Position numbers and translations under genes: made by a program. Below are positions 23,230-34,988 of a stretch of DNA of 64,000 nt, one piece after another. The notes under the pieces are model-generated. The model was given only the letters and a program-made list of their open reading frames with translations. It ran no database searches and was not told the origin of the DNA. This DNA is from Streptomyces sp. MMBL 11-1. GTDB lineage: Bacteria > Actinomycetota > Actinomycetes > Streptomycetales > Streptomycetaceae. Positions within the stretch are counted from its first letter, which is position 1. Every line of letters starts with the position of its first letter. Location: positions 3,909,001-3,973,000 of the forward strand of contig NZ_CP117709.1 of NCBI RefSeq assembly GCF_028622875.1, read 5' to 3'.

Positions 23230-24948
23230 GTGAGCACCGAGAACGAGGGCAACGAGGGCAACGCGGTACCGGCCGTGCCGTCCGCACCTCCCGGGCCGGC
23301 CGCCACTCCCGACCCGGCGACCGACGGCGCGACGCCGCCGGCCCCGGCGCAGGACGCCCCAGCGCGCGAGGCGGCGCACGAGCCCGCGCACGACACCGCG
23401 CGCCTGCCCGTGCACGACACCGGCGCAGCGGAGGCCGCCCCGCACTCCCCCGGAGCGGGGGGCCCGGCACCGGGCGCACCGGGAGCGCCGGCGCATGCCG
23501 AAGCTCCGCGCCACGACCCCACGCACCAGGGCGCCCCGTCCTCCTCGGGCGCTCCGGCCACGCCCGCGTACGCCCAGGCCCCCCACCCGGCGCCGTCCCA
23601 GCCGCCGCAGCACCCTCCGTACGGAACGGCGCCCGGATACGGAGCGGAGCCCGGGCTCCCCGCGGGCGCCGCGTCCTGGCCGCCGCCTCCGCCCGCCGTC
23701 CCGTCGTACGCCGACGGGGGCGCCGGTCACGCGTCCGGCGGCATCGGCAACGGCAGCGGTCACGGCCCGGTCTGGGGCGCTCCGGTCCCGCCCGGCTCCG
23801 AGTCCCCCGGCCGGAGGAGCGGCAAGGGCCGCGGCAGCGGCCTGGTGGCGGCCGTGGCCGTGGCGGCCCTCGTCGCGGGCGGCATCGGCGGAGCCCTCGG
23901 GTTCTGGGCGGCCGACCGGAACGACGAAGGCAACGGCGGCGGCTCGACCACCATCTCGGCGTCGGACACCCCGAGGGACCTGAAGCGCCCGGCGGGCACG
24001 GTGGCCGGGGTAGCGGCGAAGGCGCTCCCCAGCGTGGTCACCATCGACGCGCAGGGCGGCGGGGGCGAGGGCGGCACGGGCACGGGCTTCGTGTACGACA
24101 AGGAAGGCCACATCCTCACCAACAACCACGTGGTGGCGTCCGCCGCGGAGTCGTCCGGCGAACTGTCGGCGACCTTCTCCGACGGCAAGAAGTACGCAGC
24201 CGAGGTGGTCGGCCGCGCCCAGGGCTACGACGTGGCGGTGCTGAAGCTCAAGAACCCGCCCGCGGGCCTCGCCCCGTTGCCGCTGGGCAACTCGGAGGGT
24301 GTCGCGGTCGGCGACTCGACGATCGCGATCGGCGCGCCCTTCGGCCTCTCCAACACGGTCACCACGGGCATCATCAGCGCGAAGAACCGCCCGGTGGCGT
24401 CCGGGGACGGCTCCAGCAACAAGAACTCGTACATGAGCGCCCTCCAGACCGACGCGTCGATCAACCCGGGCAACTCCGGGGGCCCGCTGCTGGACGCGAC
24501 GGGCGCGGTCATCGGCATCAACTCCGCGATCCAGTCGACCGGCGGGGGCCTCGGCCAGTCCCAGGCCGGCTCCATCGGGCTCGGCTTCGCGATCCCGATC
24601 AACCAGGCCAAGAACGTCGCCGTGCAGCTGATCAAGACCGGCAAGCCGGTCTACCCGGTGATCGGCGCGACGGTCACGATGGAGGAGAAGACGGGCGGCG
24701 CGGCCATCTCCGCCGAGGGCGCGGGCGGCACCCCCGCCGTCACCCCGAACGGCCCGGCGGCCGAGGCGGGCCTGAAGGCGGGCGACGTGATCACGAAGTT
24801 CGACGACACCGTGATCGACAGCGGCCCGACCCTGATCGGCGAGATCTGGACCCGCAAGCCGGGTGAGAAGGTGACCCTGACGTACGAGCGCGACGGCAAG
24901 ACGGCCACGGCCGAAGTCACCCTGGGCCAGCGCGAGGGCGACAGCTGA
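23230..24948 (+). CDS. HtrA/DegP-like membrane-anchored serine protease with PDZ domain
   Basis: 572 residues. The first ~190 are a proline/alanine-rich, disordered cytoplasmic tail. A transmembrane helix lies at about 206-226 (VAAVAVAALVAGGIGGALGF). The trypsin-like domain has the full triad: His in LTNNHVVASA, Asp in GYDVAVLKLK and Ser in NPGNSGGPLL. A PDZ domain ends the protein (GPAAEAGLKAGDVITKFDD, about 515-533). The family degrades or processes misfolded proteins outside the membrane. GTG start at 23230 with gaggag upstream. It is the last gene before tRNA-Ser. Confidence 0.94.
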   Translation: MSTENEGNEGNAVPAVPSAPPGPAATPDPATDGATPPAPAQDAPAREAAHEPAHDTARLPVHDTGAAEAAPHSPGAGGPAPGAPGAPAHAEAPRHDPTHQGAPSSSGAPATPAYAQAPHPAPSQPPQHPPYGTAPGYGAEPGLPAGAASWPPPPPAVPSYADGGAGHASGGIGNGSGHGPVWGAPVPPGSESPGRRSGKGRGSGLVAAVAVAALVAGGIGGALGFWAADRNDEGNGGGSTTISASDTPRDLKRPAGTVAGVAAKALPSVVTIDAQGGGGEGGTGTGFVYDKEGHILTNNHVVASAAESSGELSATFSDGKKYAAEVVGRAQGYDVAVLKLKNPPAGLAPLPLGNSEGVAVGDSTIAIGAPFGLSNTVTTGIISAKNRPVASGDGSSNKNSYMSALQTDASINPGNSGGPLLDATGAVIGINSAIQSTGGGLGQSQAGSIGLGFAIPINQAKNVAVQLIKTGKPVYPVIGATVTMEEKTGGAAISAEGAGGTPAVTPNGPAAEAGLKAGDVITKFDDTVIDSGPTLIGEIWTRKPGEKVTLTYERDGKTATAEVTLGQREGDS

Positions 24949-25034
24949 CCGGCTAGGCTGTCCCACGCGTCGAACCGGCCCCCCGTGGGCCTGACGGCCC
25001 ATCGGCTTGCACAGCGACCGGACCGCAGACGCGG

Positions 25035-25124
25035 GGTGGGTTGCCCGAGCGGCCTAAGGGAACGGTCTTGAAAACCGTCGTGGCAGCGATGTCACCGTGG
25101 GTTCAAATCCCACACCCACCGCCA
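25035..25124 (+). tRNA. tRNA-Ser (anticodon UGA)
   Basis: Acceptor arms GGTGGGT (25035-25041) and ACCCACC (25114-25120) pair over 7 bp; discriminator G, and CCA is encoded at 25122-25124. The anticodon loop cttgaaa between ggt and acc gives anticodon TGA. A long variable arm (tggcagcgatgtca) marks a class II tRNA, as expected for serine. T-arm gtgggttcaaatcccac is perfect. The 3' 60 bp are duplicated at 31140-31199 by an integrated element. Confidence 0.97.
25063..25122 (+). mobile_element. attL of the tRNA-Ser element (60-bp direct repeat, left copy)
   Basis: Identical to 31140-31199. It covers the anticodon arm through the discriminator base and first C of CCA of tRNA-Ser, the usual target of tyrosine integrases. 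The tRNA gene stays complete on this side. Confidence 0.93.
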
Positions 25125-25143
25125 GGTGAGAGAAGTAGCAGGT

Positions 25144-25180
25144 CAGAGGGCGGGTCTCCGAAGTGGAGACCCGCCCTCTG
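25144..25180 (+). terminator. Terminator carried by the element just after tRNA-Ser
   Basis: Perfect 16-bp inverted repeat, 25144-25159 and 25165-25180, loop 5 nt (gaagt). It lies inside the element, 20 bp after the tRNA, where it ends tRNA transcription and, on the other strand, the int transcript. Confidence 0.85.
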
Positions 25181-25234
25181 CGCTCACTTTGTCTCACCCC
25201 ACGCCCCTGATTCCCGGTGCCGACCAGGGCGTGT

Positions 25235-25253
25235 GGGCCATACGCGGGCCAGG
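25235..25253 (+). promoter_or_regulatory. Candidate integrase arm-type site, left
   Basis: gggccatacgcgggccagg, 16 of 19 bases the same as 31054-31072 in the same orientation near attR. Each copy itself contains a gggcca direct repeat. Confidence 0.5.
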
Positions 25254-25260
25254 ATCGGCC

Positions 25261-26517
25261 CTAGTCCTCGGCGCGAAGCCCCAGCTCAACGAGCCGGTTG
25301 GCCGCAGCCGACCCGCCCTTGAGGAGCTTGGCGTAGAACCGGTAGAGCACCGCGAGGCTGTGGCCGGCGCGGTAGGCAGCCTCCACCGGGTCCATACCGG
25401 ACTTGATCCACAGCGAGATCGCCGCATGCCGCAGGGAGTACGGGACCTCGGCCAACGCGGTCCGAAGCTCCTGCTCGCTGAGCACCGCCTTCCGCGCTTC
25501 GCTCCAGACCTCGGAGTACTCGTTCGACGTCAGACGACCGCCACGCACCGCCCGAAACAGCCGACCGTCCGGTGCAACGCCGAAGCGCGCGATGTGGGCG
25601 CGAACCATGCGCACGTAAATCGGCGGGACGGGAACGGCCCGTACAGCCTTACGCGCCCGGTGCTTCAGGCCGCGCTCGTCGTGGGACTTCCCGCTGTCGG
25701 TCCAACCGCCCCCGACCTCCGGGTGGCTCTCCGACACCAGCACTTCGCCCCACGCATCCGGCTCGCTCTCCGAAGGCAGGATGAAGTCCGACTCCTTGAG
25801 GGCCGCGGCTTCGCCGGGACGCGTCGCCACGTAGTACACAGCTCCGTAGAACGCCTCAAGTTCCTCACCACGTTCTCCCTGCGCGGCCACGGCGGCGAGC
25901 AGAGCGCGAGCGAGTCGAGGGCCGGGCACCCACCGGAAATCGACCTCGTCCGAGGTCTGCGGAGCGGCCCAGTCCACCGACAAGAACGGGTGACGGGTGA
26001 GCAGGGCCCGTTCCTCAACCGCATAGCGGAAGGCGTTGCTCAGCACCATGCGCTTCCGGTTGGCGGTGTTCTCCGCCGCAGGCTTGCCGCTCAGGAGCCG
26101 GGAAAGCGCTGTGAGCGCCGCGCGTACGTTCTCCGGCTTCGCGGCTTCGTCCACCCGCATCGAATGCTGTCCAAGCCACTCCAGTGCCTTTCGGACGTCG
26201 TCGGGAGGCTCTTGGGCGTCGGCGCGCGAGACGAGCTGATTCTTCTGCCCGTCCACGGCTCGGAAGGCCCACTGATACAGAGCGGCGCGGAGCACACGGG
26301 CATCGGGTCGGGTGCCGCTGCCCCTTGTGAAGACGGGCGTTACGACCGCGAGGGATTCCGCGATGCTCGCCCGATGCTTCGCCGCCGCCCCGGGCCACTT
26401 CATCAGTGCGTACGCCTTGGCGTGTTCGAACCAATGCGCCCACCGACGCGGCAACGGCTCCTCAAGCAGCTTCTCCGCAAGAGGATAGGCCCAAGCGGTC
26501 AATCCCGTGGCCGTCAC
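25261..26517 (-). CDS. Tyrosine recombinase/integrase of the tRNA-Ser element
   Basis: 418 residues. The catalytic domain fills the C-terminal half: first arginine in YYVATRPGEAAALKESDF, the H-x-x-R box in YSLRHAAISLWIKSG (as RHAA), the second histidine in YRAGHSLAVLY and the nucleophile tyrosine in RFYAKLLKG close to the end. The N-terminal ~180 residues are the SAM-like core-binding region. It should catalyse site-specific recombination between attP and the tRNA-Ser 3' end; the gene lies right beside attL, as is typical. GTG start overlaps the regulator stop by 4 bp. Base composition is nearer the host than the NACHT gene in the same element. Confidence 0.93.
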   Translation of the reverse strand: MTATGLTAWAYPLAEKLLEEPLPRRWAHWFEHAKAYALMKWPGAAAKHRASIAESLAVVTPVFTRGSGTRPDARVLRAALYQWAFRAVDGQKNQLVSRADAQEPPDDVRKALEWLGQHSMRVDEAAKPENVRAALTALSRLLSGKPAAENTANRKRMVLSNAFRYAVEERALLTRHPFLSVDWAAPQTSDEVDFRWVPGPRLARALLAAVAAQGERGEELEAFYGAVYYVATRPGEAAALKESDFILPSESEPDAWGEVLVSESHPEVGGGWTDSGKSHDERGLKHRARKAVRAVPVPPIYVRMVRAHIARFGVAPDGRLFRAVRGGRLTSNEYSEVWSEARKAVLSEQELRTALAEVPYSLRHAAISLWIKSGMDPVEAAYRAGHSLAVLYRFYAKLLKGGSAAANRLVELGLRAED

Positions 26518-26984
26518 GATCTCGAAGACTCCGTTCGCTCTGGCAGCGCCCGCACAGTGCGCTGCTTGCCTTGCCGGGCCTCGGACAAGAAGCCGGCGGA
26601 TTCCAGCTTGGCCAGAGCCTTGCTCACGGTTGGGCGAGAGACCCCGAACCGGGAGCTGAGCTCTGTGGTGCTCGGGAAGGCTGCCCGTAGGGCAAGATCA
26701 TCATCCAAAATCACGTCCGCCATACGCTCAGCCAAGGGGCGAGGATCGACGTCCTGCCCGGGCCGCACCACTCGCCACCGACCGCCAGGTACGGGCTTCG
26801 CGACCCCCTCCTTCCGAAGGACGCTGAAGGCTCGAAGTGCGACCCCGCGAGACACGCCATGGTTGCGCATCAACTCCGCGACTGACGGCAGTTCGGTCAT
26901 CTCATGGTCAGCATCGATCTGCGCTCTCACAGCTGCGGCCACCTTCAGAAAGGTCCCCCGTGGGCTGGCTTGCTGGGACACCAC
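26514..26984 (-). CDS. GntR-like regulator with two winged-helix modules
   Basis: 156 residues from the GTG at 26984, which has a strong ggggag five bases upstream (a second GTG follows directly). Two helix-turn-helix units are visible: ELPSVAELMRNHGVSRGVAL (about residues 28-47) and FPSTTELSSRFGVSRPTVSK (about 110-129), each followed by a wing. Both look like GntR N-terminal DNA-binding domains, without an effector domain. It is co-translated with the integrase (GTGA overlap), so it probably regulates int or its own promoter and may also control the divergent NACHT gene through the shared 216-bp spacer. It could double as an excisionase; that is a guess. Confidence 0.82.
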   Translation of the reverse strand: MVSQQASPRGTFLKVAAAVRAQIDADHEMTELPSVAELMRNHGVSRGVALRAFSVLRKEGVAKPVPGGRWRVVRPGQDVDPRPLAERMADVILDDDLALRAAFPSTTELSSRFGVSRPTVSKALAKLESAGFLSEARQGKQRTVRALPERTESSRS

Positions 26985-27200
26985 CTGCACTCCCCCCTCG
27001 TGCTCACCGGTCACCTCAAGCCTCCCACGAACGTCTGCGCCGGGGCCTAGGCCACAAGCACAACCCGTAGGTGCAGGCCGCACACCACTGACACACGGGG
27101 TGCCCTACCTTCCGCTTGCCCTGGCTCCGCCACCGGTAACGCTCGGGCCGATTTGGCCAAACCAGCGCCTCAACGCCGTCTCTTGCGAGACTATCGTTGT
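26985..27200. promoter_or_regulatory. Divergent promoter region between regulator/int and the Mrr-NACHT gene
   Basis: 216 bp with no gene. Contains the perfect 10-bp palindrome tttggccaaa at 27152-27161, about 40 bp before the NACHT start, a plausible operator. I cannot fix -10/-35 boxes. Confidence 0.5.
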
Positions 27201-30200
27201 GTGAATCGCTATGACCTGACCCGGATGGGCCCACACGAGTTCCAGCGTCTTGCCCAAGCACTGCTCCTCGCAGAGTTCGGCTCTCACATTCGGATCCATG
27301 GCATGGGGCCGGATGGCGGTCGGGATGCGAGCACGCGAAGCGATTTGCATGTTTCACCCACCAATCCGCCATGGTCCGGGTTCACGGTATTTCAGGTAAA
27401 ACACAAGGAAGAGCTCACTCGGCGGACCGCAGATGCCCGGTGGCTGCTTAATGAACTCAAAACGGAAGTTGCCGCCTGGCTAAAGCGAGAAGAAAAACCT
27501 CGGCAGCTACTGATCATAACAAACGTGGCACTAACACCGGCCCCAGGGGGCGGCGAGGAGTTGATTAATCAATATCTTGAATCAATCACTCCAATCCTAA
27601 ATCTTGAGGACTCGGACGTCTGGCACGCCGAAAAGATTTGCCGACTCCTAGATTCGCACACTGCGGTTAGGCAGCGGTTTCTAGGATCAGTAATGGGCGA
27701 CCTTTTGACTACTTTGACAGAGTCAATTTCTGAGACCGAGACCGATATTAGCGATGCCGTGTCGGGGCACCTAGCAAAGGTCTTCAAGGCCGAAAGATAC
27801 GCAGAACTCGATCAGGGTGGCGGGGTAGACGACCGAAGAGTCCCCCTAGCACGCGTATTCGTAGACGTGCCCTACACAGGAGATTCTACAGAAGACATAT
27901 TTTCCTTCGAAGAGGAAACGGGAGAGGAAGAAGCTAGCGCAGCCACGATAGTCGACCTATTGAATCTCCATGCCACTCCGATCGATAGAGCCCAAGCCGC
28001 CTCACGAGGCCGAATTCTCGTTATTGGCGGCCCCGGGCAAGGTAAAAGCACACTTGGTCGCTTTATATGTCAAATTTACCGCTGCGAACTATTGGCTCGG
28101 CATAAATTCCTTGGAGTTCAAGAAGAAATTTCACTAGAGGTAAATCGCACCAGGCTAATTTGCGAGGAGGAAGGCATCCCATTGCCCACTTCTCTGAGAT
28201 TCCCCATATTTGTTTCGCTACCCAAGTTCGCGAACTATCTGGCCGAAAACCCGGAAAGATCGCTGATGTCTTTCATTGCAGAAAGAGTGGGGGAGGGGGC
28301 AACAGTCGGAACAATGCGACGCTGGATGCGAAAGTATCCTTGGTTGCTCGTCCTTGACGGATTGGATGAGGTGCCCAGCACGGCAAATCGCGGCCCAGTG
28401 ATGGACGCCATCAGTGCCTTCAATGATGCGGCAGATGCTTGCGGAGCCGACCTGGCGATAATCGGGACGAGTAGACCGCAAGGTTACAAGGATGAATTCA
28501 CTTCATTCAAAACCATGTTTCTATCTCAGTTGCGCAATGAACAAGTGATCCGCTATTCACGTAGGCTAACAGCCATCCGCCACGGCGATGGGAGCGACAA
28601 AGCGAACGAGATTATGGAGCGCGTGGAGCGCGCTGCCGGCCAGGCAGAGACTGCACGTCTGATGACAACCCCGCTCCAAGTGACAATTCTTGTCCTTCTC
28701 CTGTCGCGTTCGAGTGTCGCACCCAGCCAGCGATACGTGCTGTTCTCTAACTACTATCAAGTGATCTACTCCCGTGAGCTGGAAAAAGATACGCCCCATG
28801 TTGTAACGCTAGACCGGTACAGAACTTTCATCGATCTCCTGCATTGGCGAATTGGCTTTCGCCTGCAATGCGAAGCCGCAATAGCCTCGCATACAGAGTC
28901 CTCACTCACTAGGGAGGACATGAAGATAGAGCTAGAGATAATTCTTGGAGGGGAGGGATACGAGGCGGAAGAAAAAACTCAGCTCGTTTCTCAAATAATG
29001 AATGCCGCCACAGATCGGCTAGTCTTTCTCGTGGCGAATACAGCAGAGCGTATGGGCTTCGAATTGCGCAGCCTTCAGGAATTTTGCGCCGCAAACGGCG
29101 TTCTAGAGGGGAACGACGAAGAGGTTTACGAAAGGCTTGCCTCGATCGTTTGCAGCGATCATTGGAGAAATACCTTTCTGCTTGCGAGTGGAGCAATATT
29201 TTCCAGGAATAACGCTCGTCGTGACATGATTACGTCCATTTGTCACGAGCTCAACTCTGGCGATGTCCCAGAATACCCTGGATCTGGCGGATCTCTCATG
29301 GGATCGCGTCTTGCAATTGACATTCTGGCCGATAGGGTCGCTGACACGGCGCCTCGTCATCAGAGAATGTTGACCGAAACTGCAATATTCATCATCGGAA
29401 TGTGCGGCGGGGAATCTCTTTCGAAACTTTCGGAAGTAGATTTTACCGATGCGGCATCGCGGAAAAAGTTTTCAGAGGCGGTTGCTCGCGCGTCCTCTTC
29501 GGACAATTTTTTCGACCGTTTGGGGGCCCTACTAGTTGCGTCGTTCGAGGCCGATGCGGACGGCTCAGGAGCGTACGAGCGACTGCGCGATCTGCTAGAT
29601 GGAAAAGTAGGTGCCGAAAGAAATCGGTTGATGAGCACAGGGCTCGGCATCAACCGTGGGCGCTATTCCATGACGCGCGTACTACTAGAATACCTGCCGT
29701 CATTGACGCCTGCTGAGGCAAAGCCACTACTGACACGGGCTCACCAAGCAAGTTGGATGGCACCTGATGAATGGCATAAGGACGCTACACTCCTTACCCG
29801 CTTGATAATGGGACTTACGCACTTTATGCGCAATCGGGCGACGCGAGTGGGCACGGCTGGCACTTACCGACCAGCGCTGTTCCAGATCAAGACGCCAACC
29901 CTGCAATCCGAATGGCTAGTGAGTGTCGGCAAAATTGCTAATTCTCTAGGTTTTTCCGGAGCGTGGGAGTTCCTTCGGCGTGCGGTTCTGTTCGCTCACG
30001 CACCTAGCCGTGAAAGTTGGGACCTTGCTCTGATCGCGCTGAGAACCGCAGATGCAAAAGACGTAAATGCCTGGTGGCAGGCACTGCCATGGCCTCTTGC
30101 TCTTTGGTGGGAGCAGGGGCAGCCAGCTTTGGGCGTTACCCCCGAGGCCGTCGGACAGTGGCAAGAGGTACAGGACCGATGGCTTAACGGCGTCGAACCC

Positions 30201-31019
30201 GAAGAACTTCTATGCGTACACCCTCAACTTATTCCTGAGGTCATCGGTGTACCCGCATATCGCTTGATGGTGTCCCCTCAAGAGTGTCAGTTCGAGCAAC
30301 TGATGTCTATCTTCACCTCTCTCGCTGCCCTTCCACAGAGTCGTTTCAAAGAAGCGCGAATATCCTGGTTCTGGTCAATGCTGGAGAGCAGCACTCAGGG
30401 CTACGCGCTTCTAAGCTCTCTGCCCTTCGAATCCATCGAGCGAATTTCCGCATCATCGGTACCAGTGAGTCTCATAATGAAACTGGTTATGACCGGGGAT
30501 GATGATCACATTGAGCTAGCGAACACGCTAGGCAAGAACGCCAAGATTTTGACTGTGAAGGCAGCCGCAAAGGCATCTCCGCGAGTCACTAGGTATATCT
30601 ACGAGATATGGCGCAGGAAGCCGTCACGTTGGGGGCTGGCGAGGATGCTCCTGCGGCTTCCTCATATTGAAACAGGTGAATCATGGATCGAAGTGCGAGA
30701 CCTTGAAGAGAATATGGAGAACAACTTTAGAAAACTGATTATTGCATGGGGTGGAAGTTGGGATGCAGATGATTGGTACACCATTTCCGAATGCCTATCT
30801 GACCTGACGATAGGGCACGACACGGCACCAATTGGATTTTTCAGGAAGTTTACCCAAGGCGGAGGAGGAGCGACTCTCGCAAAAATGCTTAAGAACCTCG
30901 AAGACGCACGGTATCTTTCTGTAGTTAATCACCTTCACCACCACTACTCCACGAAGACGATTCCCATAAAGGGAGCAGGGGGAGTCTCTTATGGGACCGA
31001 GTGGGGGGTTTCGCCGTAG
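27201..31019 (+). CDS. Mrr-like nuclease - NACHT (STAND) NTPase fusion, predicted anti-phage defence protein
   Basis: 1272 residues from the GTG at 27201 (VNRYDLTRMG), which opens the first domain; a TTG at 27153 would add 16 residues. Residues ~5-85 match an Mrr-type PD-(D/E)xK nuclease: EFQRLAQALL helix, then GPDGGRDA (acidic residue about 38/42) and FQVKHK (about 64-69, Q-x-K core). Residues ~270-440 are a NACHT NTPase: Walker A GGPGQGKST (276-284), Walker B LVLDGLDEVP (383-392), sensor-like IIGTSRPQGY. RMGFELRSLQEFCAA (about residue 620) is the typical post-NACHT motif. The last ~650 residues are helical-looking with no repeat I recognise and would be the sensor. In family knowledge, Avs and bNACHT proteins of this plan detect phage proteins and trigger nuclease activity. 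Composition is near 50% G+C by eye, far below the ~70% around it, showing recent transfer. Specific subfamily unresolved. Confidence 0.88.
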   Translation: MNRYDLTRMGPHEFQRLAQALLLAEFGSHIRIHGMGPDGGRDASTRSDLHVSPTNPPWSGFTVFQVKHKEELTRRTADARWLLNELKTEVAAWLKREEKPRQLLIITNVALTPAPGGGEELINQYLESITPILNLEDSDVWHAEKICRLLDSHTAVRQRFLGSVMGDLLTTLTESISETETDISDAVSGHLAKVFKAERYAELDQGGGVDDRRVPLARVFVDVPYTGDSTEDIFSFEEETGEEEASAATIVDLLNLHATPIDRAQAASRGRILVIGGPGQGKSTLGRFICQIYRCELLARHKFLGVQEEISLEVNRTRLICEEEGIPLPTSLRFPIFVSLPKFANYLAENPERSLMSFIAERVGEGATVGTMRRWMRKYPWLLVLDGLDEVPSTANRGPVMDAISAFNDAADACGADLAIIGTSRPQGYKDEFTSFKTMFLSQLRNEQVIRYSRRLTAIRHGDGSDKANEIMERVERAAGQAETARLMTTPLQVTILVLLLSRSSVAPSQRYVLFSNYYQVIYSRELEKDTPHVVTLDRYRTFIDLLHWRIGFRLQCEAAIASHTESSLTREDMKIELEIILGGEGYEAEEKTQLVSQIMNAATDRLVFLVANTAERMGFELRSLQEFCAANGVLEGNDEEVYERLASIVCSDHWRNTFLLASGAIFSRNNARRDMITSICHELNSGDVPEYPGSGGSLMGSRLAIDILADRVADTAPRHQRMLTETAIFIIGMCGGESLSKLSEVDFTDAASRKKFSEAVARASSSDNFFDRLGALLVASFEADADGSGAYERLRDLLDGKVGAERNRLMSTGLGINRGRYSMTRVLLEYLPSLTPAEAKPLLTRAHQASWMAPDEWHKDATLLTRLIMGLTHFMRNRATRVGTAGTYRPALFQIKTPTLQSEWLVSVGKIANSLGFSGAWEFLRRAVLFAHAPSRESWDLALIALRTADAKDVNAWWQALPWPLALWWEQGQPALGVTPEAVGQWQEVQDRWLNGVEPEELLCVHPQLIPEVIGVPAYRLMVSPQECQFEQLMSIFTSLAALPQSRFKEARISWFWSMLESSTQGYALLSSLPFESIERISASSVPVSLIMKLVMTGDDDHIELANTLGKNAKILTVKAAAKASPRVTRYIYEIWRRKPSRWGLARMLLRLPHIETGESWIEVRDLEENMENNFRKLIIAWGGSWDADDWYTISECLSDLTIGHDTAPIGFFRKFTQGGGGATLAKMLKNLEDARYLSVVNHLHHHYSTKTIPIKGAGGVSYGTEWGVSP

Positions 31020-31053
31020 AATAGGCCCGAGGACCAGCCGCGTCGCCAGGCAT

Positions 31054-31072
31054 GGGCCATGTACGGGCCAGG
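31054..31072 (+). promoter_or_regulatory. Candidate integrase arm-type site, right
   Basis: gggccatgtacgggccagg, 16/19 match in direct orientation to 25235-25253, 67 bp inside attR. Confidence 0.5.
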
Positions 31073-31139
31073 CCGTAAGTCTGGAGAGCCGCATCGGGGA
31101 TAAGTGCAGGTCGGCGCGTTGGCAGTTGACTGGGCTGCC

Positions 31140-31199
31140 CGGTCTTGAAAACCGTCGTGGCAGCGATGTCACCGTGGGTTCAAATCCCACACCCACCGC
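31140..31199 (+). mobile_element. attR of the tRNA-Ser element (60-bp direct repeat, right copy)
   Basis: Exact copy of 25063-25122; only the 3' part of tRNA-Ser, so not a functional tRNA. The next base differs (one C of CCA missing), marking the limit of identity. Confidence 0.93.
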
Positions 31200-31210
31200 A
31201 GGCGAGAGGT

Positions 31211-31249
31211 GTAAGGCCCCCGACCAGGGGATTCGGTCGGGGGCCTTAC
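31211..31249 (+). terminator. Original tRNA-Ser terminator, displaced by the element
   Basis: Perfect 15-bp inverted repeat, 31211-31225 and 31235-31249, loop 9 nt, 11 bp after attR. Its spacing from the tRNA remnant shows it was the native terminator before insertion. Confidence 0.8.
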
Positions 31250-31318
31250 GCATGCGCGCTTCTCGCCGGGGCGCCGGAGGAGGCGGTCTCCCCGGGTGTT
31301 TCGCCGTAGCGTGGCCGG

Positions 31319-31705
31319 ATGTTCGATCATCTGGAGGTCGGTGTGCTGCCGCGAGGGCGCCGGTACTCGGCCCGTCTGCGGATCCTGGTCAATGGCGAGG
31401 ACGTGGTGGCCGGCGCGGTCGGTGAAGGGGGGCGGGGGCCGCTCGTCGCCGACGCGCTGCCGGCCGGTGGCCCCGGTTTGCTGTGGGCCACCGGTGAGGC
31501 TCGGCGGGTCATGCTGGGGGAGCCGGAATGCGGGGGAGGCTGCTGCGGGTTTCTGTCGGTGGTCGTTCAGCGTCTCGGGGGCATCGTGCAGTGGTCCGGC
31601 TGGAAGGTTCCGTACGGGGAGGACGCCCCGTTGGAGTTCCACTTCGACGCCGAGCGGTACGACGCGGAGCTGGGCCGGTGGGGCGGCGGTCCGGTGAACG
31701 CGTAG
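31319..31705 (+). CDS. Hypothetical protein
   Basis: 128 residues, acidic, no signal peptide or membrane segment. A glycine/cysteine stretch ECGGGCCGFLSVVVQRLGG lies near residues 70-88 and the end is PLEFHFDAERYDAELGRWGG. I do not recognise a family with known function; similar small proteins are common in Streptomyces. First host gene after the element; its own promoter should lie between the displaced tRNA terminator and 31319. Converges on the membrane protein gene at 31729 with a 23-bp gap. Confidence 0.7.
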   Translation: MFDHLEVGVLPRGRRYSARLRILVNGEDVVAGAVGEGGRGPLVADALPAGGPGLLWATGEARRVMLGEPECGGGCCGFLSVVVQRLGGIVQWSGWKVPYGEDAPLEFHFDAERYDAELGRWGGGPVNA

Positions 31706-32958: not shown

Positions 32959-33912
32959 TCAAGCCGCGCCGTCCTTCTTCCCGCCCTGCCCCGAGGTCAG
33001 CCGTGCCGCTGAGGCGATCGCCGCGCGGGCCTCGTGTTCCGGGAGCCCGGTGCGGACGGCGGCGGCGGTGAGCGCGTCCGCCAGGGCGTCGCCGAAACCG
33101 TGTTCGTAGGCGCGGCAGGCCGCCCAGAACAGGCGGGTGTTGCGCTGGCCCTCGTGGGCGGCCAGGACGAACTGCACCAGGCCCTCCCCGCGACGGGCCG
33201 CGGTGGCCGGTGCGCCGGAGCCCGAACCGGTGGCCGGTCCGGACGCGGTGCCCGAGCCCGACCCCCTGCCCGTGCCGGGGGTGCGGGCCGGCGGCGGGGC
33301 CAGGAGGCGGAGCAGGGCGCGGGGGCAGGGGGCCGGGGTGAGGTGGGCGGTGCCGGGGGCCAGGCGGTAGCGGCCGCGGGCGGTGACCGAGCCGGGGCCG
33401 ACCAGGTAACCGCCGCTGCCACGGATGTCGATGCCGGGGGCCAGGCGGCCGGCGGAGTTGGGGACCGTCGCGTCCGCAGGTCCGGTCAGCCAGAGGTGGC
33501 GGCCGCCGCTCGGGGTGAGCACCGTGACCGTCGGCGGGATGGTGAACAGGTGCTGCAGGGCCAGCTGCCGCAGCGCGCCCGCCGCGTCGCTGCCGTACGC
33601 GGGGTCGACGTCCAGATCGATGCCGATGAGGCGGTGCGGGGCCCGTCCGCAGGCTATGCCGTAGCCGGTGGCCCGGGGCGCGGCGGCGAAGAGGGCGCGG
33701 ACGGCCGCGGGGTCGGTCGTGGCGTCGTGCACCCCGTGTCCCGGCAGGCCGCACTCTCCCCGGCAGTGCGGCGGCGCCTGCTCACCCCGGTGCGGCGAGC
33801 GCAGCGCGGGGAGCTTGGTGGCGGAGAGCGGGAAGACGGGGAGGCCGCGCCCGGCGGCGGCGAGGGCGTGGGCGAGGGCCAGGGTGGGGGTCTGCCGGTC
33901 GATGGTGGCCAT
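32959..33912 (-). CDS. Bifunctional DNA primase/polymerase (prim-pol) protein
   Basis: 317 residues. N-terminal prim-pol domain: LPVFPLSATKLPAL (about residues 25-38), the cysteine pair CRGECGLPGHG, the catalytic acidic strand LIGIDLDVDPAYG (about 96-108), TPSGGRHLWLTG and the IDIRGSGGYLVGPGS motif (about 168-182). A Gly/Ser-rich linker separates a small C-terminal helical region (FVLAAHEGQRNTRLFWAACR) like those that follow prim-pol in mobile elements. It could synthesise primers in replication of an integrated element, but no helicase or replication gene is next to it. ATG at 33912; frames extending upstream are non-coding. Confidence 0.86.
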   Translation of the reverse strand: MATIDRQTPTLALAHALAAAGRGLPVFPLSATKLPALRSPHRGEQAPPHCRGECGLPGHGVHDATTDPAAVRALFAAAPRATGYGIACGRAPHRLIGIDLDVDPAYGSDAAGALRQLALQHLFTIPPTVTVLTPSGGRHLWLTGPADATVPNSAGRLAPGIDIRGSGGYLVGPGSVTARGRYRLAPGTAHLTPAPCPRALLRLLAPPPARTPGTGRGSGSGTASGPATGSGSGAPATAARRGEGLVQFVLAAHEGQRNTRLFWAACRAYEHGFGDALADALTAAAVRTGLPEHEARAAIASAARLTSGQGGKKDGAA

Positions 33913-34246
33913 GCCATCATTTTCGTACACGAGTTCGAATAAAGGAAGAGGGGGAGGCGAGAGGCGGGGCGGAGGCGTCCGGGAGGGCCGGTGGCGGAAC
34001 GCTTCTTCCCGGGCGTGTCGACGGGTCGCTGAGGTCACCTCGCTGACCTGGACTTTCGCGCGGCTCAGGAGGTTTATCCGCTCTTCGTCATACGTGAGGG
34101 GGAATCGGGGGGTGGTGAGGGGTTCGCCGGGGAGGTGCTGGGCAACTCTGGTCTCGCGACGTTGTGAACAGCACCGGGGTGGTCGGCCAACTCCCCCGGG
34201 AACAGTCGAATATGAAGCCGCAATTCCGTTCCCTGGAGGACATGAC

Positions 34247-34561
34247 ATGGCACGTATCCGTACCGCTCGCGCTCTCGCCGCTGTCGCTGCTCTGCCCCTG
34301 GCCGTCGCCCTCTGCGGAGGGGTCGCCGTGGCGGACAACGGCTCCTTCGCGAACGACGGATCGAACGCGGCTGTGGCGACGGTGGGCGGCAGCGGCGTCG
34401 GCGGCAACAACGCCGGAAACTCGTCCACGACCCAGCAGCAGGCGGTCGGGGCGGGAGCGTCGAACCAGAACACGTCCGCCCAGGTGAGCGACTCGGCCTT
34501 CGTGCCGATCGACCAGTCGGACCACAGTGTCGCGGTGAACTTCACGCCCTTCTTCTGGTGA
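34247..34561 (+). CDS. Small secreted protein of unknown function
   Basis: 104 residues. A signal peptide (ALAAVAALPLAVALCGG, predicted cut near residue 29 after VAVA) is followed by a ~75-residue mature part rich in Gly, Asn, Ser and Gln (GVGGNNAGNSS, GAGASNQNTS) and ending in the aromatic FTPFFW. ggagg lies 7 nt before the ATG. Low-complexity secreted proteins of this kind are often surface or hyphal-associated in Streptomyces, but it lacks the chaplin or rodlin signature. The upstream 334 bp (33913-34246) are divergent promoter space with nothing else seen. Confidence 0.78.
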   Translation: MARIRTARALAAVAALPLAVALCGGVAVADNGSFANDGSNAAVATVGGSGVGGNNAGNSSTTQQQAVGAGASNQNTSAQVSDSAFVPIDQSDHSVAVNFTPFFW

Positions 34562-34647
34562 TCCTCCTCGGGGGGCACGGGCGACGCGGATGACACGGTC
34601 GCGGTCGCGGACGTCGGGGCCTCCCGGGGGGCCCCGGCAGACCGAAC

Positions 34648-34692
34648 GGCAGCCCGCGCGAAGGCACTTCGGAGCCTTTGTGCGGGCTGCCG
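34648..34692. terminator. Hairpin after the small secreted protein gene
   Basis: Stem 34648-34658 with 34682-34692 (11 bp) plus an inner stem aaggc/gcctt. 86 bp after the stop at 34561. Confidence 0.7.
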
Positions 34693-34696
34693 CCGT

Positions 34697-34988
34697 CTGG
34701 ACATCCTCTACGACCACTTCACGCCGTTCGTCCTGATGCACCTGGAGGAGTACGGTTTCTGCGGTCCCGGCGGGGCCGGGGAGTTCGCCGCGGCCGGACG
34801 CCCTGTCCCTGAACACCCACGGGGGCCAGCTGGGCCAGGCGTGCCTCCACGGGACGAACGGCATCGCGGAGGCCGTCCGGCAGGCCCCGGGGAGTGCGGT
34901 GAACCAGGTGGCGGGGGCGGCGAGGGCGCCGGTCACGGCCGGTACGGGCGTCCCGACGTCGGGCCTGGTCATCGGCGCGGACGGCTGA
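34697..34988 (+). pseudogene. Remnant of a thiolase / lipid-transfer protein, C-terminal ~95 codons
   Basis: Frame 1 from 34697 reads LDILYDHFTPFVLMHLEEYG and CGPGGAGEFAAAG, then the match continues one frame over as LSLNTHGGQLGQACLHGTNG, AVRQAPGSAVNQVAGA, VTAGTGVPTSGLVIGADG and stops at 34986-34988. This is the C-terminus of actinobacterial thiolase-like lipid-transfer proteins. The frameshift near 34800, the lack of a start and the missing ~280 N-terminal residues show a dead fragment. Immediately upstream sits a hairpin. Confidence 0.8.

Follow-up and report, generated by a model that had tools for sequence, protein, structure and literature searches.

The tRNA-Ser island and its cargo gene

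The stretch of DNA analysed here (the window) comprises 64,000 nucleotides (nt) of the soil bacterium Streptomyces sp. MMBL 11-1, and contains on its forward strand, at 27201-31019, a gene for a protein of 1272 amino acids (aa) in which an Mrr-like nuclease domain, a NACHT NTPase and a presumed C-terminal sensor are joined. Translation and alignment of the region, together with comparison of related loci, showed that this Mrr-NACHT gene is the cargo of a decayed element that resembles the actinomycete integrative and conjugative elements (AICEs) and is inserted in a tRNA-Ser gene, a setting that was overlooked in the first-pass annotation of the window. Translation from the GTG codon at 27201 gave an open reading frame (ORF) with no internal stops. 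A TTG codon at 27153 is a possible start further upstream; the start at 27201 is favoured because several relatives begin just ahead of the matching YDL motif.

The integration site is the tRNA-Ser (UGA) gene at 25035-25124 (+ strand), located using ARAGORN and a repeat search. A 60-nt repeat forming the 3' end of this gene (left attachment (att) core, 25063-25122) recurs unchanged, at 60/60 positions, as the right att core at 31140-31199 (+ strand). At 31113-31199, over the right att copy, ARAGORN also predicted a further tRNA-Ser (UGA) whose 5' half is different. In genome G066, a close relative without the island, the right-flank gene lies 112 nt beyond the tRNA-Ser gene, and the joined flanks of the window matched this genome at 92.4% over 1349 bp. 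The att repeat and the empty site in G066 therefore define the island as a 6077-bp insertion. The G+C fraction of the Mrr-NACHT gene is 0.53, against 0.73 for the flanks. A second att copy of at least 44 nt was found at 18 of 77 tRNA-Ser loci of the genus (16 of the 60 selected for similar flanks and 2 of the 17 selected through their integrase, with G032 in both sets), a count for which 1-18 kb was read, so that longer islands were missed.

Domain architecture of the protein and its relatives

The first-pass annotation had described a 1272-residue protein with a nuclease motif, a NACHT domain with intact Walker A and B motifs and an LQEFCAA motif, and this description was borne out by translation, by the motifs themselves (GPDGGRDA at residues 36-43, QVKHK at 65-69, GGPGQGKST at 276-284, VLDGLDE at 384-390 and LQEFCAA at 625-631) and by their conservation, which was assessed in an alignment of the window protein (P0001) and 81 relatives with the core (82 sequences).

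The N-terminal domain (residues 1-180, 27201-27740, + strand) was assigned as an Mrr-like PD-(D/E)XK nuclease from PADLOC matches, alignment, an Mrr_cat scan, a structure model and hhalign. The D...(E/Q)xK catalytic motif of Mrr-like PD-(D/E)XK nucleases is present, with D38 (27312-27314), Q65 and K67 (Q65-K67, 27393-27401) each kept in 81/82 sequences, the exceptions being loci L024 (D38 and K67) and L055 (Q65); F14 is invariant (82/82). This conservation points to catalysis. A profile comparison with Mrr had been proposed in the first-pass annotation, and the likeness was found using hhalign: a profile of 42 N-domain sequences (the window protein and 41 of 71 relatives) aligned with 17 of the Mrr_cat domains fetched from the genus at 86.7% (E 4.4e-6, single comparison), and the alignment spanned the D...QxK motif. 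In PADLOC, residues 3-172 matched a REase-type pAgo model (E 1.1e-5) and the protein matched the PDC-S73 model (E 1.2e-4). By sequence, the domain is called Mrr-like rather than a member of Mrr_cat.

The NACHT NTPase occupies residues 268-430 (28002-28490, + strand; Walker A at 28026-28052, Walker B at 28344-28370), as placed by Pfam, alignment and fold, and is followed by a helical post-NACHT part that contains LQEFCAA (residues 431-650, 28491-29150, + strand; alignment, model and fold). Residues K282, T284, D386, D389, E390 and E627 are conserved in 82/82 sequences. A model of residues 1-760, built from 66 sequences (the window protein and 65 of 71 relatives), had a mean predicted local distance difference test score (pLDDT) of 87.8 and a predicted template-modelling score of 0.82. 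Its best matches in the PDB were NOD2 (5irm, E 3.7e-9, template-modelling (TM) score 0.39), then NLRC4 and NLRP3, whereas Avs4 (8dgf) ranked 16 (E 1.2e-5, TM 0.23). In the model, the NTPase is closest to the NACHT of animal NLRs (nucleotide-binding, leucine-rich-repeat proteins), and the key residues and the closest folds identify the core as NACHT-type. The likenesses on which the earlier description depended, to PD-(D/E)xK folds at the N-terminus and to STAND NTPases (signal-transducing ATPases with numerous domains), were thus both found.

The remainder of the protein (residues 651-1272, 29151-31016, + strand) was characterised by alignment, iterative search and modelling as alpha-helical and presumably the sensor. 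Alignment occupancy was above 0.8 up to about residue 800 and 0.26-0.55 thereafter, which can be attributed in part to the length of the relatives, many having only about 950 aa and others about 1300 aa. A model of residues 600-1272 (33 sequences, pLDDT 73.8) was all-alpha, and its best matches were HEAT/ARM solenoids, although these were weak (best E 7.5e-4, TM about 0.2). The absence of a recognisable repeat noted in the first-pass annotation held for the sequence; the weak matches of the model suggest, but do not prove, that the sensor is HEAT-like. An iterative search linked the C-termini of 40 of 92 relatives to that of the window protein, from three matches in the first round, by a profile that was rebuilt four times and did not converge, so that drift is possible. 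Alignment and both models place the domains in the order effector, NACHT and C-terminus, the last with a predicted sensing role. Taken together, conservation, fold and position support a single gene that joins an Mrr-like nuclease, a NACHT core and a sensor-type C-terminus on the bNACHT/Avs plan.

Matches at E<=1e-10 were present in 14 of 246 genomes of the genus, the window's own included. In addition, 28 plasmid records matched. Among the best 80 of at least 280 relatives in the genome collection, Actinomycetota predominated, with Gamma- and Alphaproteobacteria, Chloroflexota, Acidobacteriota, Riflebacteria, Paenibacillus and others also represented; Streptomyces, Rhodococcus, Pseudomonas, Methylomonas and Paenibacillus all have family members, as does E. 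coli. PADLOC gave only weak or partial matches for eight family proteins, the window's and seven relatives' (best E 1.1e-5), and current defence annotation may therefore miss the family. Three of 5426 E. coli genomes matched when the Klebsiella variicola relative was used as a DNA query, over 60% of that query. The relative in E. coli H2 (WP_096949132.1, L335:8001-11993; 26% identity over 697 residues), which this search brought up, has a partial portal gene on one side and the replication endonuclease on the other, within a P2-like prophage that is partly broken. This site is the gpA-gpQ site of P2 prophages, which is described as a defence hotspot in an excerpt of PMC9122126, and the E. coli H2 relative offers a tractable laboratory model.

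Within 4 kb of the gene, tRNA duplication was found in the window and in 3 of 83 loci (L028, L040 and L057). At L040, in Streptantibioticus silvisoli, a tRNA-Tyr gene and a partial duplicate of that gene (88.6% over 44 nt, equalled in 0 of 200 shuffles) enclose a 459-aa integrase, a 94-aa HTH (helix-turn-helix) protein that by eye looks like an excisionase, and an Mrr-NACHT gene of 947 aa. This tRNA-Tyr element (L040:8006-13114) measures about 5 kb, and its integrase (44% identity over 387 residues) retains the N-terminal part.

Variants of the architecture were also observed. Relatives of about 1600 aa (L101:9887-14683, L103:9896-14743 and L105:3611-8452) have the NACHT and C-terminus in common with the window protein and no match to its N-terminal nuclease, and their effector seems to have been exchanged. 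Conversely, L016:1-2100 and L017:1-2106 have the window-type N-terminal domain on proteins with a different core, which in L016 matched the Pfam families NB-ARC, AAA_16 and, weakly, TPR. At L028:9902-13796 and L090:9926-13970 the relative is in two consecutive frames, split near the end of the conserved core; these are either broken genes or natural two-gene forms.

Element decay and a possible GntR-side cargo slot

The left part of the island contains a 418-aa integrase-like ORF (25261-26517, - strand), which was shown to be chimeric by protein and DNA comparison with genome G158 and other relatives. Integrases 89% identical to it are present at the same tRNA in G170, G155 and G116, and in G170 and G155 the integrase is followed by a Prim-Pol gene; the stretch read in G116 was shorter. 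In G158, the same tRNA gene is occupied by an element whose att cores are separated by 18,742 bp. Window positions 24319-26433 correspond to the left end of this element (73%) and 26435-26981 to its right end with the GntR gene (70%), which places a deletion junction at 26433-26435, with 16.6 kb of the element's interior absent from the window. The first 28 residues of the integrase-like ORF match the gene beside GntR in G158 (79%, E 2.6e-11), and from residue 29 to 416 it corresponds to the G158 integrase, starting at position 78 of the latter (58%, E 1e-154), leaving about 75 N-terminal residues of the relatives' integrase missing. Arm-site binding is a function of this N-terminal part in tyrosine integrases, so that the island can probably no longer move by itself.

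The G158 element encodes the integrase, a Prim-Pol gene (E 1.5e-45) and a 729-aa protein with a Walker A motif, which is related (33%, E 2e-66) to a frame in G170 with a weak FtsK match. The AICE transfer signature FtsK_SpoIIIE was sought in G158, G170 and G155, with no match within the G158 element, and as its 729-aa protein has no FtsK match in Pfam the element is termed AICE-like. Beyond the right att, G158 resembles window positions 25060-25330 (85%), and a further remnant may follow there. Integration in a tRNA gene with direct repeats, as in AICEs, is evident in the window, but in place of the intact int, rep and traB genes of AICEs there is a truncated, chimeric int, and no rep- or tra-like gene was recognised in 25261-31139. 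The island is thus the remnant of an AICE-like element, reduced to part of an integrase, the GntR gene and the NACHT gene, with an att repeat on either side. Decay of AICEs with truncated integrases is described in an excerpt of PMC9513070, and the island provides an example of an immune gene outliving the mobile element that delivered it.

The GntR regulator is encoded at 26514-26984 (- strand). Its listed ORF extends to 27083, and the start is probably near 26984 because, of the 32 other GntR loci similar to the window in this region, 24 lose that similarity at 26980-26984. The divergent intergenic stretch from this point to the Mrr-NACHT gene (26985-27200), where the cargo starts, is the presumed promoter region.

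GntR relatives (E<=1e-12) were found in 105 of 392 genomes, and at least 15 genomes have the gene at a distance of 5-29 kb from an integrase belonging to the window's family. The region outside GntR was surveyed at 60 loci picked by similarity from the 105 genomes, only some of which were shown to be near an integrase. In 59 loci with six full bins, the mean G+C fraction per 500 bp moving away from GntR was 0.59, 0.58, 0.59, 0.60, 0.64 and 0.65. The 111 proteins of this slot matched 199 PADLOC models at E<=1e-5, and 79 control proteins from farther out matched 11; the comparison is not a rate, since there is redundancy among the models (those for PD-T4-6 pick up kinases broadly), which are not counted per protein, the controls come only from loci read far enough, and the greedy caller used for slot ORFs produced some spurious ones. 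The top models for the slot were SduA (3.7e-94), LmuB (4.4e-93) and NsnA (2.4e-69), and the control set includes real defence matches, for example a type IV restriction model (E 0). Counted per protein, 8 of 10 slot proteins matched, these ten having been hand-picked from the 111 as low in G+C and near GntR. Pfam detected TIR, GmrSD, Schlafen AlbA_2, PIN and HEPN domains among the slot proteins and also ordinary genes (Ku, sigma factors, AMP-binding and radical SAM). Across loci L270-L329, the low-G+C stretch outside the GntR gene of AICE-like elements includes conflict genes of the Shedu, Lamassu, TIR, caspase-like, Schlafen-like and further types, and may serve as a source of actinomycete defence genes. 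In the window the slot is filled by the Mrr-NACHT gene, and in G158 GntR and the att core are about 210 bp apart.

We consider it about evenly balanced whether Streptomyces has an AICE-like family with a rapidly exchanged slot between GntR and att for one or a few low-G+C immune genes, with Shedu, Lamassu, TIR, Schlafen-like, caspase-like and Mrr-NACHT genes as contents, a slot that would outlive the conjugation part in minimal form, as an integrase remnant, a regulator and a single STAND gene inserted in a tRNA gene, with the integrase, excisionase-like and Mrr-NACHT genes of L040 as a still movable one-gene immune element. No description of a GntR-side defence slot was found among the open-licence papers listed, and the slot may be new, whereas the Mrr-NACHT protein itself represents a variant form of a kind already described. 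Restriction-modification and AIPR genes have been recorded among AICE cargo (PMC9513070, excerpt), and a figure legend in the excerpted PMC3218068 lists a NACHT NTPase among the genes of Frankia AICEs and related elements. If the slot is real, low-G+C genes just outside GntR would give a simple rule for finding actinomycete immune genes.

Two ORFs adjoining the Mrr-NACHT gene were rejected. The + strand ORF at 25126-27204, considered as an operon partner on account of its 4-nt overlap, has no family match in Pfam or PADLOC and is antisense to the integrase and GntR genes; the downstream ORF at 30991-31425 has no match in either. Just beyond the right att, a Prim-Pol gene is present at 32959-34704; such genes also occur inside AICE-like elements, so that this tRNA-Ser site may already have received an older element.

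Proposed function and comparison with known systems

As predicted from sequence, model and analogy, the Mrr-NACHT protein is quite likely a one-protein, NLR-like STAND phage sensor with a DNase effector. In the resting state, the NACHT core would keep the Mrr-like nuclease at the N-terminus switched off. The C-terminal solenoid would sense either a phage component or a host protein perturbed by infection, leading to nucleotide exchange in the NACHT and then to oligomerisation; the nuclease domains would gather and cut DNA, stopping the phage and probably also the cell. We infer the trigger, oligomerisation, DNA cleavage and abortive outcome by analogy with bNACHT25 and bNACHT32 (PMC12169576, excerpt) and, as general background, with Avs. 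The gene would have arrived as cargo of the AICE-like element, beside the element's GntR regulator, and the loss of about 16.6 kb from the interior would have reduced the content between the two att copies to the integrase remnant, GntR and the NACHT gene. On weak grounds, the NACHT promoter may be under the control of GntR.

A role in defence is suggested by the conserved catalytic residues, the NLR-type fold of the core, the variable C-terminus, the defence-type cargo slot and the relatives in a tRNA-Tyr mini-element and at the P2 hotspot. The stand-alone anti-phage sensor-effector proposed in the first-pass annotation is partly supported: the one-gene nuclease-NACHT-sensor plan holds, phage protection is predicted, and the suggestion that the sensor detects something new is tentative. 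Several observations weigh against the defence interpretation. The relative in Nonomuraea at L024:7989-11669 aligned almost over its full length, yet has D38 and K67 replaced, so DNA cutting is not universal in the family. Residues 1-200 scored 14.5 bits against Pfam Mrr_cat (cut-off 21), only 8 of 42 N-domains scanned matched Mrr_cat at E<=1, and a PDB sequence search with the N-domain profile returned one chance-level match (E 1.2). For Pfam NACHT the window protein scored 19.8 bits (cut-off 26.7), a cut-off exceeded by the relatives at L025, L011 and L014, and TM scores to NLRs were only about 0.4, over the whole core with the N-domain in one query. The gene nearest GntR is divergent, as in the window, in only 25 of 60 loci, which weakens the case for common control by GntR. 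No relative was found in phage records, nor in viral contigs at a sensitivity suited to close relatives only, and a phage or viral origin of the gene was accordingly rejected. Phage_integrase was matched by 3 of 145 nearest neighbours of relatives, in a scan that covered the nearest gene on each side (the L040 integrase, a second neighbour, being uncounted) and omitted 3 of 148 listed neighbours; travel of the whole family with integrases is thus unsupported.

It is unlikely that the protein instead serves the mobile element, by excluding rival elements or plasmids or by addiction killing of cells that lose the island. The gene is cargo of a remnant in a tRNA site that different elements have used, as the second att copies at 18/77 loci attest, and KorSA, of the GntR family, restrains pSAM2 replication and transfer (PMC3218068, excerpt); however, no partner gene beyond the integrase and GntR was recognised among island ORFs of at least 80 aa, relatives are found on plasmids and at a prophage defence hotspot as well, and exclusion of rival elements can coexist with phage defence. 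That the gene is a decaying, non-functional relic is still less probable: the element around it has decayed, and pseudogenisation of AICE cargo is reported as frequent (PMC9513070, excerpt), yet the 1272-codon frame and its motifs are intact despite loss of part of the integrase and of 16.6 kb. It is highly improbable that the protein is a regulator whose Mrr-like domain binds DNA without cutting it, as the near-invariant D38, Q65 and K67 point to catalysis and the context is of defence type, even though STAND regulators are common in Streptomyces and 10 NACHT matches (E<=0.001) are present in this genome, the Mrr-NACHT gene among them.

Avs3 and Avs4 combine an Mrr-type effector with a TPR sensor, recognition of phage terminase or portal being characteristic of Avs proteins, and the window protein likewise joins an Mrr-type nuclease, a STAND NTPase and a presumed helical sensor, which a weak match to a model of modest confidence suggests may be HEAT-like rather than of the TPR type. 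Membership of Avs (AVAST) was rejected: no Avs model of PADLOC matched the window protein at E<=1, only two REase/TIR-pAgo models and PDC-S73 doing so, and PDB sequence searches found no Avs chain at E<=1. No NCH1 match was found at E<=1 in Pfam, which presumably contains a model of this domain. By the description in the excerpted PMC12169576, bNACHT25 and bNACHT32 (clade 6) resemble the window protein in uniting an N-terminal PD-(D/E)XK DNase, a central NACHT and a C-terminal sensor in one protein, and probably differ from it in carrying NCH1 as their C-terminal domain; these PD-(D/E)XK-NACHT proteins defend, and D48A abolishes defence. The STAND proteins with an Mrr_cat effector at the P4 hotspot of E. 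coli, compared by description only (PMC9122126, excerpt), likewise have a STAND NTPase, C-terminal repeats and a location in a mobile-element hotspot, whereas the E. coli H2 relative of the window protein is at the P2 hotspot. The island has in common with the decayed AICEs described in the excerpt of PMC9513070 a truncated integrase and cargo between direct repeats, and is unlike them in having one large, intact immune-type gene and an integrase that is a chimera of two genes.

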